A DNA stretch of 23,480 nt. It comes from a bacterium. Lineage in GTDB: Bacteria > JAJRZV01. Below the pieces are notes generated by a model, which worked only from the letters and a program-made list of their open reading frames with translations, searched no databases and was not told the origin of the DNA. This document shows, one piece after another, positions 17,968 to 22,504 of the stretch. Position 1 is the stretch's first letter, and each line of letters starts with the position of its first letter. The stretch lies in the NCBI GenBank assembly GCA_024275095.1, contig JAJRZV010000080.1, positions 1 to 23,480 on the forward strand, given 5' to 3'. A program made the position numbers and the translations under genes.

Positions 17968-18906
17968 TTACATGCTGCACTCCAGTTCTACTTCTTTTTC
18001 GTGTTCTGTGCTTCGGTCTTTGAGCATCACGCGACCGCTATTGCAGCTTTCTTCGCTGAAATTCAACTCGTAGGAAACTTCTGTCTCCTGGGATTGAGAT
18101 GCTTCGGCCTGCTTTGTCTCACTTTCCATTTCTCCTTCATGCTTGATTTCCACTGTGCATGCTCCTGCTGTTGGATGCTCACATCCTTCTCTCTGCTGGA
18201 CGTTTTCAAATTCAATTTCCATTTCAAGCCCTGCAGCTTCATTGACCACTGTGCACGAACCTGACACTGTGGCAGCCTTCTCCTGCGTTTCAGGCCCGGC
18301 CTCTACATCTACACTCAACTCACAGTCCACATTCAGTGTTATGTTCTCGTCTATTCTGTACACATCGAATGAAAACGTTTTTGTCATTGACATGGAGTGA
18401 TCCTGGAGGTCTATAACCACGGAAAGGTTGGCTGTTCCTGTAATAACCACGTTGGCTCTTTCCACGTTTTCAAAACTCACACTTACCGTGTGAGTGATGG
18501 ATGTGGTCGAGACCTGGGTCCAGACGATTACATCAACGTTACCCTGACCCTCGCCGCAGTTAAGAGAATAGTGCTCCGAACCGTCTTCCATCTGGGTTTT
18601 ATTGACGTTGCCGCAGAGTTCATCCGTTCTGCCTTCGTCTGTGGGCGTGGACTCTCCTTCCGGAAAAGAAGAGTCTGGAATGGTGGTGGTTTCGGCCAGC
18701 GGTGCCAGGGACCCGCTGCTGCTGCTCAGAACAGTCTCGTCCAGAACCGTATCCACTGCATCTATGGAATCGAGAGCAGCAGCTACAGAGGTGGTTGCCG
18801 CCTCTTCTTCAGTGCTTACTCCCTCGCTTCCTCCACACCCTCCCATCACAAGCACGAGAACACTTGCCCCGGCCAGGAGCATTTTCAGCCTTTTTACTTT
18901 CTTCAT
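17968..18906 (-). CDS. Cysteine-rich predicted lipoprotein, unknown function
   Basis: A 312-residue exported protein with a basic N-terminus (M-K-K-V-K-R-L-K), a hydrophobic core and the lipobox V-M-G-G-C (Cys24). Residues 25-95 are a linker rich in Ser, Thr, Glu and Ala. The rest is Thr/Val/Glu-rich with alternating hydrophobic residues, as expected for beta-sandwich or repeat-like sheet. Eight further cysteines fit up to four disulfides, which would form after export. I recognise no family. The ATG at 18906 has GGGAGGTG at the right distance; the GTG just before it is less likely. A promoter-like GTAAC-N17-CGTT sequence precedes the gene, and a strong terminator follows it, so it is probably its own transcription unit within the sigma-factor regulon. 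Function is unknown. Confidence 0.85.
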   Translation of the reverse strand: MKKVKRLKMLLAGASVLVLVMGGCGGSEGVSTEEEAATTSVAAALDSIDAVDTVLDETVLSSSSGSLAPLAETTTIPDSSFPEGESTPTDEGRTDELCGNVNKTQMEDGSEHYSLNCGEGQGNVDVIVWTQVSTTSITHTVSVSFENVERANVVITGTANLSVVIDLQDHSMSMTKTFSFDVYRIDENITLNVDCELSVDVEAGPETQEKAATVSGSCTVVNEAAGLEMEIEFENVQQREGCEHPTAGACTVEIKHEGEMESETKQAEASQSQETEVSYELNFSEESCNSGRVMLKDRSTEHEKEVELECSM

Positions 18907-18945
18907 CACTTCACCTCCCTCAGTTAATGGGTTTCGATTGGTAGA

Positions 18946-18968
18946 ACGGAACAGCCTGACGAAAGGTT
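18946..18968 (-). promoter_or_regulatory. ECF-type promoter candidate for the cysteine-rich lipoprotein gene
   Basis: On the minus strand GTAAC (AAC at 18968-18966) is followed after exactly 17 bases by CGTT (CGT at 18948-18946). An AAC -35 and CGT -10 at 16-17 bases are the hallmark of ECF sigma promoters. The start of transcription would be about 30 bases before the ATG. The same arrangement, with the same first T-A-A-C and C-G-T-T, lies before the beta-barrel gene of the sigma operon. Confidence 0.58.
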
Positions 18969-18997
18969 ACACAATTGCCTCCTCCGCGGAAGGATTT

Positions 18998-19843
18998 TTA
19001 CGGGATGTTGTGGTGAAACTTATCTTTTTTTGTGGGAATCTGAGTGGGGACGCCCATTTCTCCACCGGGTACGAATTGTTCCGGCATCTCCTGCATCAAT
19101 TTTGTCCCTGTAGTTCCTGGCGAGTTGGTTCCTTCGCCTGTGAACGGATTATCCATGCGTATCATGATTTCCTGGAATGAAAATCCTTTTTTGATCCCCT
19201 GTAAGATCCGCTTTTCGTATCTGTAAAGCTCCTTTTCCCGAATTTTCCCGGAGGAGGTGATTTTTCTCAACATGCGTTCGAGGTCCTGTTGGGTGGCACC
19301 TGCCTCGCACATCAGCCCTGCCACATCAGCGAGCTGGGCCAGTTGATGGGGGTTGAGTTGATTGATGTGTTTTTGGACCTGGGAAAAGAAGCGCTCAAGA
19401 AGGGCTCTGTTGTTATCCGGCGTCCGGTATAGTGCGTCCACCAGTGCTTTTACTGTGTAGGTAGGCGGGGTGGATTTGAGGAGCGAAGCTGACAGGGTAT
19501 ACGCCCACTTTACGTCTTCAGCGTAGACTTGGAGCCGATTGAGCAAGAGAGGGGGAGGAACGTGCTTTGCGAGTCCTTCCAGAAGCTTTTGTGACCATAT
19601 TTCCACTTCTTCCCGGGTGCGGAAGGAAGAGAGTGTTTTGACAAGCACATTCTGATTTTCAGGATTTAAGCGTTTTGCAACACGAGCGTGTATATACTGT
19701 GCGCGTTCCTTGCTTAACCCTGCTCTAACGAGGGCTTTTTCCAGCGAAAGGGCCTCGGGGCGCCCCTGGGATGGACAAAGAAACAGGACACAGGCAGCAA
19801 CCAGAATTCCTGCGGCCAGTTTTTGTGAATTTAATACCTTCAC
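18998..19843 (-). CDS. Exported alpha-helical protein, unknown function
   Basis: A 281-residue protein with a signal peptide (hydrophobic residues 9-23). V-A-A-C at 15-18 looks like a lipobox but is followed by more hydrophobic residues, so ordinary signal-peptidase cleavage near residue 27 is as likely. The mature part (about 30-235) is rich in charged and Leu residues, consistent with a helical bundle of unknown family. The last 45 residues are a Gly/Pro/Thr-rich tail. It starts with a GTG overlapping the stop of the CBM48 protein by four bases (GTGA), so translation is probably coupled. It belongs to the sigma-factor operon, and is followed by a promoter candidate and the lipoprotein gene. 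Confidence 0.8.
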   Translation of the reverse strand: MKVLNSQKLAAGILVAACVLFLCPSQGRPEALSLEKALVRAGLSKERAQYIHARVAKRLNPENQNVLVKTLSSFRTREEVEIWSQKLLEGLAKHVPPPLLLNRLQVYAEDVKWAYTLSASLLKSTPPTYTVKALVDALYRTPDNNRALLERFFSQVQKHINQLNPHQLAQLADVAGLMCEAGATQQDLERMLRKITSSGKIREKELYRYEKRILQGIKKGFSFQEIMIRMDNPFTGEGTNSPGTTGTKLMQEMPEQFVPGGEMGVPTQIPTKKDKFHHNIP

Positions 19844-20160
19844 TGCTCTAACCGCAGTATCAAATTGCGTCCACCGAAAGCATCGGGAACAGTTTTCTGG
19901 TCAGGGGGGACGAAAATTTCGCCGTCTACCAGGAAGACATAATGATAAAGTCCTCTTTGCAGCGGAAGACCAACTGTCCATAACCCGTCTTCACATTTCA
20001 TGGTCCCTTTCTCGGGGTCCCACTGGTTGAAGTCGCCTATTACACGCACATCGTGAGCACACGTTTTTAAGTCCAGGATAAGAGTGACACCCTCTGCTTC
20101 CGGCTGCACGCGCAACATATTGGCAGCACAGGATGAGAATATGAGGCCCGCGGAAAGCAT
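19840..20160 (-). CDS. CBM48/AMPK-type domain protein, probable lipoprotein
   Basis: A 106-residue protein that is almost entirely one early-set (CBM48, AMPK glycogen-binding type) domain: V-R-V-I-G-D-F-N-Q-W-D-P at 38-49, G-L-W-T-V, G-L-Y-H-Y-V-F-L-V-D-G and P-D-A-F-G-G-R-N. The N-terminus M-L-S-A-G-L-I-F-S-S-C ends in a lipobox-like Cys11, but it is short and lacks the usual basic residues. A longer version from ATG 20259 would add 33 residues, with many Arg and Lys, but would overlap the anti-sigma gene by 100 bases. I prefer the ATG at 20160 because it overlaps that stop by one base (TGATG) and has AGGGGG seven bases before it. The domain resembles the one in the anti-sigma protein, suggesting duplication. 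Ligand unknown. Confidence 0.82.
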   Translation of the reverse strand: MLSAGLIFSSCAANMLRVQPEAEGVTLILDLKTCAHDVRVIGDFNQWDPEKGTMKCEDGLWTVGLPLQRGLYHYVFLVDGEIFVPPDQKTVPDAFGGRNLILRLEQ

Positions 20161-20795
20161 CAGAATGCCCCCTGCTTTTCGTAGGAAAGTTTGAGCACGG
20201 AGTTGACGTTTCCAAAACCGTCTTTGACGTAGTCTGTAGCAAGCGGGTCGGGTATCCATAAGGAGTTATTTACAACAAAGGCGTAATTGTATCTACCTTT
20301 TTTGAGTGGAACCACGGCGACCCATGTGCCGTCGCCGTCCAGGTCCTCCATGGGAGTGGCGGAAGGATTCCAGTCGTTGAAGTCTCCCACGATGGATACG
20401 GACCGCGCTCCAGGGCGATGGAGCACGAATTTTACGTAGACCACGTCAGGAGAAGTTTTGGGTTGATGGTGGAGAGAAAGAAAGATCGCCGCGGGGATGA
20501 GAATACACAAGACAGCAGTCAGTGCTGCCGCGTACACTTTCAGGAAAAGCGGCGCCCTTTCCACCACCACAGGCTGGGCCTGGATTTGTCGCATGATTTT
20601 TTCGGGAAGCCCTGGAGAAGGCCGGGCTCTGGATTGAAAGCGAGAATACGATTTTTTCAAGGCAATGTATTGTTTGAAGGCTTCTTGAAGTTCGGTATCG
20701 CCTTTCAGAAGTGCAAGCGCATCTTCTTCATTGATACGGTTGCTCAGGAAATCTTCCACCACCCGGTAAAAAAGGAGTCTCTTTTTTAACTTCAT
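20160..20795 (-). CDS. Membrane anti-sigma-like protein with extracytoplasmic CBM48 domain
   Basis: A 211-residue protein with three parts: a cytoplasmic helical region (1-80), one transmembrane segment (about 84-108) and a CBM48/AMPK-type early-set domain (about 118-205). The last carries V-S-I-V-G-D-F-N-D-W-N-P (133-144), W-V-A-V-V-P-L and Y-N-Y-A-F-V-V-N. Its gene begins on the stop of the sigma gene (ATGA overlap, GGGAG ribosome site), the standard place for an anti-sigma factor. The cytoplasmic part lacks the zinc-binding HxxxCxxC of ZAS-type anti-sigma factors, so assignment rests on position and topology. Related sigma/glycogen-binding-domain gene pairs are known in several candidate phyla and are little studied. 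I infer that the outer domain senses a ligand or the second CBM48 protein. Confidence 0.8.
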   Translation of the reverse strand: MKLKKRLLFYRVVEDFLSNRINEEDALALLKGDTELQEAFKQYIALKKSYSRFQSRARPSPGLPEKIMRQIQAQPVVVERAPLFLKVYAAALTAVLCILIPAAIFLSLHHQPKTSPDVVYVKFVLHRPGARSVSIVGDFNDWNPSATPMEDLDGDGTWVAVVPLKKGRYNYAFVVNNSLWIPDPLATDYVKDGFGNVNSVLKLSYEKQGAF

Positions 20796-21400
20796 AATGC
20801 TTTCTCCCTGAAGCTGTTGAGAAAGTGTTTCAAATGCTCTGCCAGACGCTTGCGGCTTCTGTGCACACGGACTTTTAGCAGTGCCACGGGAACCCCCGTG
20901 ATTTTTTTCATTTCCGTGTAGTTCATCTCCAGAATGTGCTTGAGTACAAAAGCCTCCTGCAGGGCCGGGGGCAACGTGCCAAGCGCCTCTTCGAAAACAG
21001 CAACGAGCTCGCTGTCAGCGAGAAGCTGGTGAGGGTCTGTGCCGGTTCTGGTATCAGGAATGGATGCATGTTCTTCTATAGAGTCAGTATGTTTGGAATT
21101 CCAGCTCCGGACGAAGTCAATGGTGCAGTTTCTGGCGATTTTATAAAGCCACTGCCTGAAATTTCCTTTTCTGTATGTGTGAATGTGTGCGAATGCTTTA
21201 AGAAAGGTTTCCTGCACCAGATCCTCCGCAGTGTGCTGATTTCTCACGAGTGCACGGACAAACGCGAATATTTCCCTGTGATACCGCATTACGAGTACCC
21301 CAAAAGCCTCTTTGTCGCCTTGCTTGACCTTTTCAACCACGAAATCGTCATCCTTTTCCTCAAGCTCTGTGGCCTCCGTGTTTTTCTCGTCAATGCTCAA
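20792..21400 (-). CDS. ECF-type RNA polymerase sigma factor
   Basis: A 202-residue extracytoplasmic-function sigma factor. Region 2 (about 22-100) includes R-N-Q-H-T-A-E-D-L-V-Q-E-T-F (53-66), which binds core polymerase, and F-R-Q-W-L-Y-K-I-A-R-N, which melts the -10. Region 4 (about 140-192) has L-P-P-A-L-Q-E-A-F and a helix-turn-helix, M-N-Y-T-E-M-K-K-I-T-G-V, for the -35. The predicted start is a TTG at 21400, 12 bases after the barrel gene, with only a weak ribosome site; an in-frame GTG about 20 codons later is an alternative. Acidic residues 1-19 precede region 2. It overlaps the anti-sigma-like gene by four bases. Two GTAAC-N17-CGTT sequences in this cluster are its likely targets. 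Confidence 0.93.
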   Translation of the reverse strand: MSIDEKNTEATELEEKDDDFVVEKVKQGDKEAFGVLVMRYHREIFAFVRALVRNQHTAEDLVQETFLKAFAHIHTYRKGNFRQWLYKIARNCTIDFVRSWNSKHTDSIEEHASIPDTRTGTDPHQLLADSELVAVFEEALGTLPPALQEAFVLKHILEMNYTEMKKITGVPVALLKVRVHRSRKRLAEHLKHFLNSFREKAL

Positions 21401-21412
21401 TGCCCCAACCTG

Positions 21413-22363
21413 TCACAAGAGAAGCGAAAATGTCACGGTGGCGCCGGCGAAAACTGAATAGTAAGCAGATCGGTTTTGTGGAACTCCCCGGCTGAAAGAG
21501 GCAAACGCTTTTACGGCAAAAGATGAAAGGTAGTACCACAGGTTGAATTCGCCGATACCCTTGTGCTCCCGGGAGTAGAGCCCGCCCTTCTGGAATCCGT
21601 ATGAACCTTTCACATTGATTACAACACGGGAGTTTGTTTCGAGAGAGAGCTTTCCTGTAAAGAGATGAAGAGAGGATGAGGAGCTGTAAAAGCCGTAATT
21701 CTGGATCACCTCGGGAGAGAAACGGGTGTTGTTGAAGGTATAGGTTGCCCCCAGAGTCACATTTTCAGAAGCCGCGAGTGTCACCTGCAGAAATGCGAGG
21801 GTACTGGAGGATTCTATTGCTGTTGTGTCCGGCCAGTTGAAAGCCTGCCCCGCTCCTGTTTCCAGGTGGAAAACAAGAGAGGGAGCGAAAACAGTGGAGG
21901 CTGCGTATCCCCACAGGGTATAGGGAACGTCAGTGGGGAGAGGAGAAAAGACAGAGGCGTGCTGTCCAAAGGAGATAACGTTCAGATAAAGAGTCTCTCT
22001 CCACAGCCGAATTTTTGCTCCGGCTTCTCCACCACCCCTGATCCATACGGGGGAGAGGTTCAGGTATTTGCTCACCTGGCCTTTGCACGTCGTGTACATA
22101 TCGAGCCGCACTCCTCTATAAAGCAGTGTGTAGGTAGCAAAAAATTCTCCAACGCTGACAGTTTCCGGAAGCCCGTTCAGGAATTCCACGGGGAGCGAGT
22201 ATGGATTTTGGGCATGGAAGAGGTTTATGCCGAGGGTAAAACGGTGATGGAAGTCTCCGCCTGCCCTTCCGGGAACAAGAAAGCAGAGCCAGATCGCCAT
22301 GCAGATGTGTCTTCGTACCCGCTCCATGTTTACATTGTACCCTTTCTCCACGCCATGCCGCAT
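21413..22363 (-). CDS. Predicted outer-membrane beta-barrel protein, unknown family
   Basis: A 316-residue protein with a hydrophobic signal segment (I-C-M-A-I-W-L-C-F-L-V-P), then alternating polar and hydrophobic residues rich in Tyr, Phe, Ser and Gly. This pattern is typical of transmembrane beta-strands, as are the paired strand-turn-strand stretches near the C-terminus. I recognise no named family; it looks like a small porin-like barrel. The start could be ATG 22363, with GGGAG nine bases upstream, or ATG 22327, which gives a neater signal peptide but has no ribosome site; I use the first. It is the first gene of the sigma-factor operon, behind an ECF-type promoter candidate. Expression control by the sigma factor is inferred. 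Confidence 0.75.
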   Translation of the reverse strand: MRHGVEKGYNVNMERVRRHICMAIWLCFLVPGRAGGDFHHRFTLGINLFHAQNPYSLPVEFLNGLPETVSVGEFFATYTLLYRGVRLDMYTTCKGQVSKYLNLSPVWIRGGGEAGAKIRLWRETLYLNVISFGQHASVFSPLPTDVPYTLWGYAASTVFAPSLVFHLETGAGQAFNWPDTTAIESSSTLAFLQVTLAASENVTLGATYTFNNTRFSPEVIQNYGFYSSSSSLHLFTGKLSLETNSRVVINVKGSYGFQKGGLYSREHKGIGEFNLWYYLSSFAVKAFASFSRGVPQNRSAYYSVFAGATVTFSLLL

Positions 22364-22420
22364 TAATCCGTGCTCCCGGAAACATCGCATCCGCCCTCGA
22401 GAGAGTGTCTACTTATTAAA

Positions 22421-22443
22421 ACGCTGGAGGGGCGCAAAAAGTT
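22421..22443 (-). promoter_or_regulatory. ECF-type promoter candidate for the barrel-sigma operon
   Basis: On the minus strand GTAAC (AAC at 22443-22441) is followed after 17 bases by CGTT (CGT at 22423-22421), the same form and spacing as the sequence at 18946-18968. The first spacer bases also agree (y-TTT-y-G). It implies transcription starting near 22412 and a leader of about 50 bases. Since this operon encodes the sigma factor, the site suggests autoregulation. Confidence 0.58.
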
Positions 22444-22482
22444 ACGCTTTCCCCCTCCCCCACCTTCGGGGGAGGGGGAAAG
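22436..22482 (-). terminator. Terminator-like hairpin after the secreted-protein gene
   Basis: A perfect 15-bp inverted repeat, CTTTCCCCCTCCCCC (22447-22461) and its complement (22468-22482), with a 6-base loop (ACCTTC). On the minus strand it lies 22 bases after the stop of the upstream gene and is followed, after CGTAAC, by five Ts (22440-22436). The arms are pure pyrimidine and pure purine. The T-run is set back from the stem, so termination may be partial. Confidence 0.7.
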
Positions 22483-22504
22483 GCTTCAAAGAGATTGAGA
22501 GGTG

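Follow-up and report, generated by a model that had tools for sequence, protein, structure and literature searches.

The window, by which we mean the whole stretch of 23,480 nucleotides that was analysed, carries a cluster of minus-strand genes around an ECF sigma factor. The predicted operon opens with a gene (21413..22390) for an exported protein without a Pfam match, the putative "barrel" of the original prediction; for this gene the alternative start ATG 22327 suits a signal peptide better than ATG 22390. This gene is followed by that of the sigma factor (20792..21400), a protein of 202 aa in which a domain search found regions 2 and 4 only, and by a gene (20160..20795) that overlaps the sigma gene by four bases. 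The 211-aa product of the latter carries a CBM48/AMPK1_CBM domain and, judging from its domains and predicted structure, is probably an anti-sigma factor. Directly after this anti-sigma candidate lies a gene (19840..20259) for a second, lipoprotein-like CBM48 protein with the lipobox-like signal LSAGLIFSSC, and the two glycogen-type domains may both face the periplasm. The next gene (18998..19843) encodes an exported 281-aa protein that belongs to no known family and has a distant counterpart (23% identity) in a paralogous cassette elsewhere in the genome. Beyond a second gap lies a gene (17968..18909) for a lipoprotein with a VMGGC lipobox.

The cluster has only two gaps, and each is occupied by one copy of a bipartite motif on the minus strand. 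Site A (GTAAC-TTTTTG...-CGTTTTA, 22420..22445) is an exact match to the motif and a putative ECF promoter, with its -35 box at 22445-22437 and its -10 box at 22423-22417; it lies in the intergenic gap 22391-22504, 5' of the gene that opens the sigma cluster. Site B (GTAAC-CTTTCG...-CGTTCTA, 18945..18970), also exact and also a putative ECF promoter, lies in the intergenic gap 18910-18997, 5' of the lipoprotein gene. The original prediction had named two copies of GTAAC-N17-CGTT that share y-TTT-y-G after GTAAC, and both observations were borne out: the shared bases are present in both copies, and a pattern search returned exactly two copies in the window, compared to 0.15 expected from dinucleotide shuffles, with at least two matches reached in 1 of 100 such shuffles. 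The positions first given for the copies cover the AAC-to-CGT part, whereas the full motifs run from 22445 to 22420 and from 18970 to 18945. The distance of 40-60 bases to a start codon proved to be approximate only, as the CGTT end of site B lies 38 nt from the lipoprotein ATG 18906 and 35 nt from GTG 18909, and that of site A 29 nt from ATG 22390 and 92 nt from ATG 22327.

AAC (-35) and CGT (-10) are the hallmark promoter boxes of ECF sigma factors (PMC8103513), and both gaps hold AAC-N17-CGT, which is within the separation of 15-17 nt that defines an ECF-type promoter. Two short boxes at a fixed spacing would also fit the half-sites of a DNA-binding regulator with no sigma promoter involved, but the boxes are not palindromic, their form is exactly of the ECF type (PMC8103513), and the sigma factor is the only DNA-binding regulator that could be recognised among the genes of the cluster; we regard the regulator reading as very improbable.

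Since the AAC/CGT form had been stated beforehand in the literature (PMC8103513), we asked for the probability of its joint occurrence in the two gaps. In simulated sequences with the dinucleotide make-up of the gaps, AAC-N15..17-CGT was found in both with P = 0.0035, and with equal spacing in both with P = 0.0011. The site pair is better than chance. Over their 29-base stretches the two sites are identical at 17 of 29 bases, a level reached by 71 of 300 simulated pairs; since this identity is not above chance, the likeness is confined to the boxes, and the gaps do not appear to be recent copies or a duplicated stretch. A scan for sigma70-like promoters found none above threshold in either gap; only weak pairs, with 7-8 of 12 bases, are present there.

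Promoter A is separated from the upstream gene by a C/G-rich, terminator-like hairpin of 16 bp (22447..22482, minus strand) whose T-run is offset by GTAAC. The GTAACTTTTT of site A (the copy at 22445) begins one base past this hairpin (22482-22447), so the T-run of the site could also be taken for a poor terminator tail, a distance of 6 nt from the stem making for a poor intrinsic terminator. The hairpin was also considered as a repeated element, which was rejected, as it is unique in the genome.

The motif was then counted over the 2.45 Mb genome by pattern searches, whose hits were placed by a simple ORF criterion rather than by a full annotation. GTAAC-N17-CGTT occurs 11 times and its backwards control 24 times. 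Eight of the 11 copies are intragenic, and the remaining three are the window pair and a copy at C69:5064-5039. Only these three have Y-TTT after GTAAC; GTAACYTTT-N13-CGTT accordingly has no more than three exact copies in the genome, and its one-mismatch copies are intragenic. The copy on C69 lies 37 nt 5' of the start codon (ATG) of a gene whose lipoprotein product has four Big_5 domains, a spacing nearly equal to the 38 nt of site B, and all three exact copies occupy gaps that precede genes of exported proteins or lipoproteins. This third copy is overlapped on both strands by poor-looking ORFs, which we take to be spurious. Because the YTTT extension was derived from the window pair itself, the copy on C69 is the sole independent one.

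Several looser patterns were also tried for a broad genome-wide regulon. AACYTTT-N11..13-CGT has 45 matches in the genome, 42 of which were scored as intragenic (the C69 copy being counted there through its overlapping ORFs); the window pair makes up two of the remaining matches, and the last, C55:2335-2313, has no downstream gene. Reversed control patterns were as frequent as the motif, or more so. A broad regulon is not supported by these counts. The looser motif is no commoner in gaps than expected, an outcome that the original prediction had named as refuting and that speaks against a wide regulon. A regulon of about three promoters, if real, is plausible.

Some further observations were made during the genome-wide search. 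At C72:7230-7207, GTAACATTTT is followed by CGT at a spacing of 16, with A replacing Y, in an intergenic region that has a panD-like gene on one side and, 131 nt 3' of the site, a type IV pilus ATPase-like gene on the other. Near-identical segments of a cyclic-nucleotide-domain-like gene are found at two contig ends (C81:151 and C88:21071; L137, L138); they may mark an assembly edge or have arisen by recent duplication. A search for relatives by SecA returned no close relative, and all returned genomes were related at domain level only.

These counts bear on whether the sites are mere coincidence, with chance matches in both gaps, site A originating from the T-rich tail of the hairpin, and the genes being transcribed by read-through or from housekeeping promoters that escaped recognition. 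Such a reading would account for the hairpin abutting site A, for the weak sigma70-like pairs, and for a broad motif that is not enriched in gaps and has equally common control patterns; but it has to accommodate a joint chance of about 0.001-0.0035 for the two gaps, the independent exact copy on C69, 37 nt 5' of a lipoprotein start, and a T-run that, at 6 nt from the stem, is badly placed for an intrinsic terminator. We consider coincidence unlikely, while giving it real weight.

The product of 20792-21400 is by its sequence a bona fide, generic ECF sigma factor. Sigma70_r2 (residues 36-99) and Sigma70_r4_2 (residues 136-186) were both found above cut-off and are joined by a linker of about 36 aa; the protein thus has only the sigma2 and sigma4 domains and a linker below 50 residues, as is characteristic of the ECF group (group IV). 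Its best match among solved structures (PDB) is Bacillus subtilis SigW. The scores against the SigW equivalog models reached 111 of 209 bits (NF007223) and 94 of 243 bits (TIGR02948), and the protein was below every equivalog cut-off listed. The -35 box of SigW is ATTGAAACCTTT (PMC8103513), which is matched by the AACCTTT of site B and of the copy on C69, giving the shared Y-TTT a known meaning. About 55% of ECF sigma factors are autoregulated (PMC8103513). We infer that the sigma factor of the window reads these boxes.

The genome contains two more ECF sigma factors, on contigs C103 and C22. The cassette on C103 (L122:67-2017) encodes an ECF sigma factor, a CBM48 membrane protein and an exported protein that are 36%, 34% and 23% identical, respectively, to those of the window. 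On C22 (L202:1-3198), a third ECF operon comprises genes for a large exported protein, a sigma factor, a zf-HC2 anti-sigma factor and a FecR-like protein; as in the window, a predicted envelope gene lies 5' of the sigma gene. The sites could accordingly be genuine ECF promoters that are read by one of these two factors, the cluster being the target of a cascade and not self-driven; the C103 factor is a paralogue with its own CBM48 anti-sigma candidate. However, the strict motif is absent 5' of both other ECF genes, including the sigma gene of the C103 cassette, while the site pair clusters around the local sigma gene, and we think it improbable that another factor is responsible.

The product of 20160-20795 is probably an anti-sigma factor, as its sequence and structural model suggest. 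Its N-terminus is predicted to form a helical bundle (helices 3-17, 23-29 and 34-56; pLDDT mostly 81-94 across the block), followed by a further predicted helix at 65-72, one transmembrane helix at about 83-109 and the C-terminal CBM48/AMPK1_CBM domain, which should face outwards. The modelled N-terminus had no significant match to PDB folds, and its sequence had none to anti-sigma models. The C103 paralogue matches an anti-sigma model weakly (E 5.6e-5, below the model's cut-off). Among proteins of the same architecture, an anti-sigma model match was found in 15 of 18 and the CBM48 domain in all 18. Moreover, 17 distant loci (L171-L187) were picked for their length or the extent of the match, and in 15 of them a gene for a CBM48 membrane anti-sigma-like protein immediately follows an ECF sigma gene; some distant ECF-CBM48 copies contain the zinc-finger anti-sigma motif HxxxCxxC. 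Upstream of the sigma gene in the distant ECF-CBM48 loci, AAC..CGT is not in excess (4 seen compared to about 5-6 expected by simple arithmetic). A scan of viral contigs for the anti-sigma candidate gave no match. The literature searched contained no relevant paper on CBM48 or glycogen-binding anti-sigma factors, which does not disprove their existence elsewhere.

Together, we favor the interpretation that sites A and B are true ECF promoters of the local sigma factor and, together with surface lipoproteins, form part of a small circuit that amplifies itself, which we judge probable. The original prediction that the sigma factor drives its own operon and the lipoprotein is supported in part: it is favored by the placement of the sites in the gaps of the cluster and by the third copy at a lipoprotein gene, but gains nothing from the looser motif, which shows no enrichment in gaps. 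In this circuit, both sites would be read by the sigma factor encoded at 20792-21400. Promoter A would drive the operon for the exported protein, the sigma factor, the CBM48 anti-sigma factor, the CBM48 lipoprotein and the second exported protein; promoter B would provide a separate transcription start for the neighbouring lipoprotein, and the third copy on C69 would serve the Big_5 lipoprotein. At rest, the sigma factor would be held by the membrane anti-sigma factor. An envelope or glycan signal, sensed by the outward CBM48 domain of this protein and perhaps also by the CBM48 lipoprotein, would release the sigma factor, which would then amplify both itself and a small set of surface lipoproteins.

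The promoter pair with its third target is a concrete and cheaply testable proposal for an ECF sigma factor of a bacterium without close relatives among the genomes searched, and the recurring arrangement of an ECF sigma factor with a CBM48 anti-sigma candidate could represent an envelope glycan sensor. It is possible, although we hold the idea only tentatively and lean somewhat against it, that the arrangement defines a widespread unnamed ECF class, in which an outward CBM48 anti-sigma factor senses glycans and whose member in the window controls its own operon and a three-promoter lipoprotein set.

The circuit itself is ordinary and of a well-known kind; the anti-sigma architecture is more interesting. 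Like the autoregulated operons of the SigW/RpoE type, the cluster combines a sigma2 and sigma4 factor, AAC -35 and CGT -10 boxes, a likely membrane anti-sigma factor adjoining the sigma gene, and envelope genes as putative targets. It has AACCTTT in common with the -35 box ATTGAAACCTTT of SigW, whereas its -10 box is CGTT and not the SigW form, and its regulon would be tiny and is predicted only. The class I anti-sigma domain (ASDI) proteins, such as RseA, RsiW, RskA and ChrR, have a three-helix bundle with a fourth helix ahead of the membrane (PMC7406223), and the predicted N-terminal helices before the transmembrane helix and the C-terminal sensor domain of the candidate would follow this layout. 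Different from ASDI proteins, the copy in the window has no zinc motif and no significant anti-sigma model match at its N-terminus, and CBM48 as a sensor is absent from the papers searched. In the SigI/RsgI systems of cellulolytic clostridia, a membrane anti-sigma factor likewise bears an outward carbohydrate-binding module placed for polysaccharide sensing (PMC10575876). The sigma factor of the window, in contrast, is of the ECF type with Sigma70_r4_2, while the SigI type has no sigma4 homology; the module here is CBM48, of the glycogen/starch type, and no autoproteolysis domain was recognised in the protein. By analogy, RsgI is the nearest functional precedent for the CBM48 membrane protein of the window.
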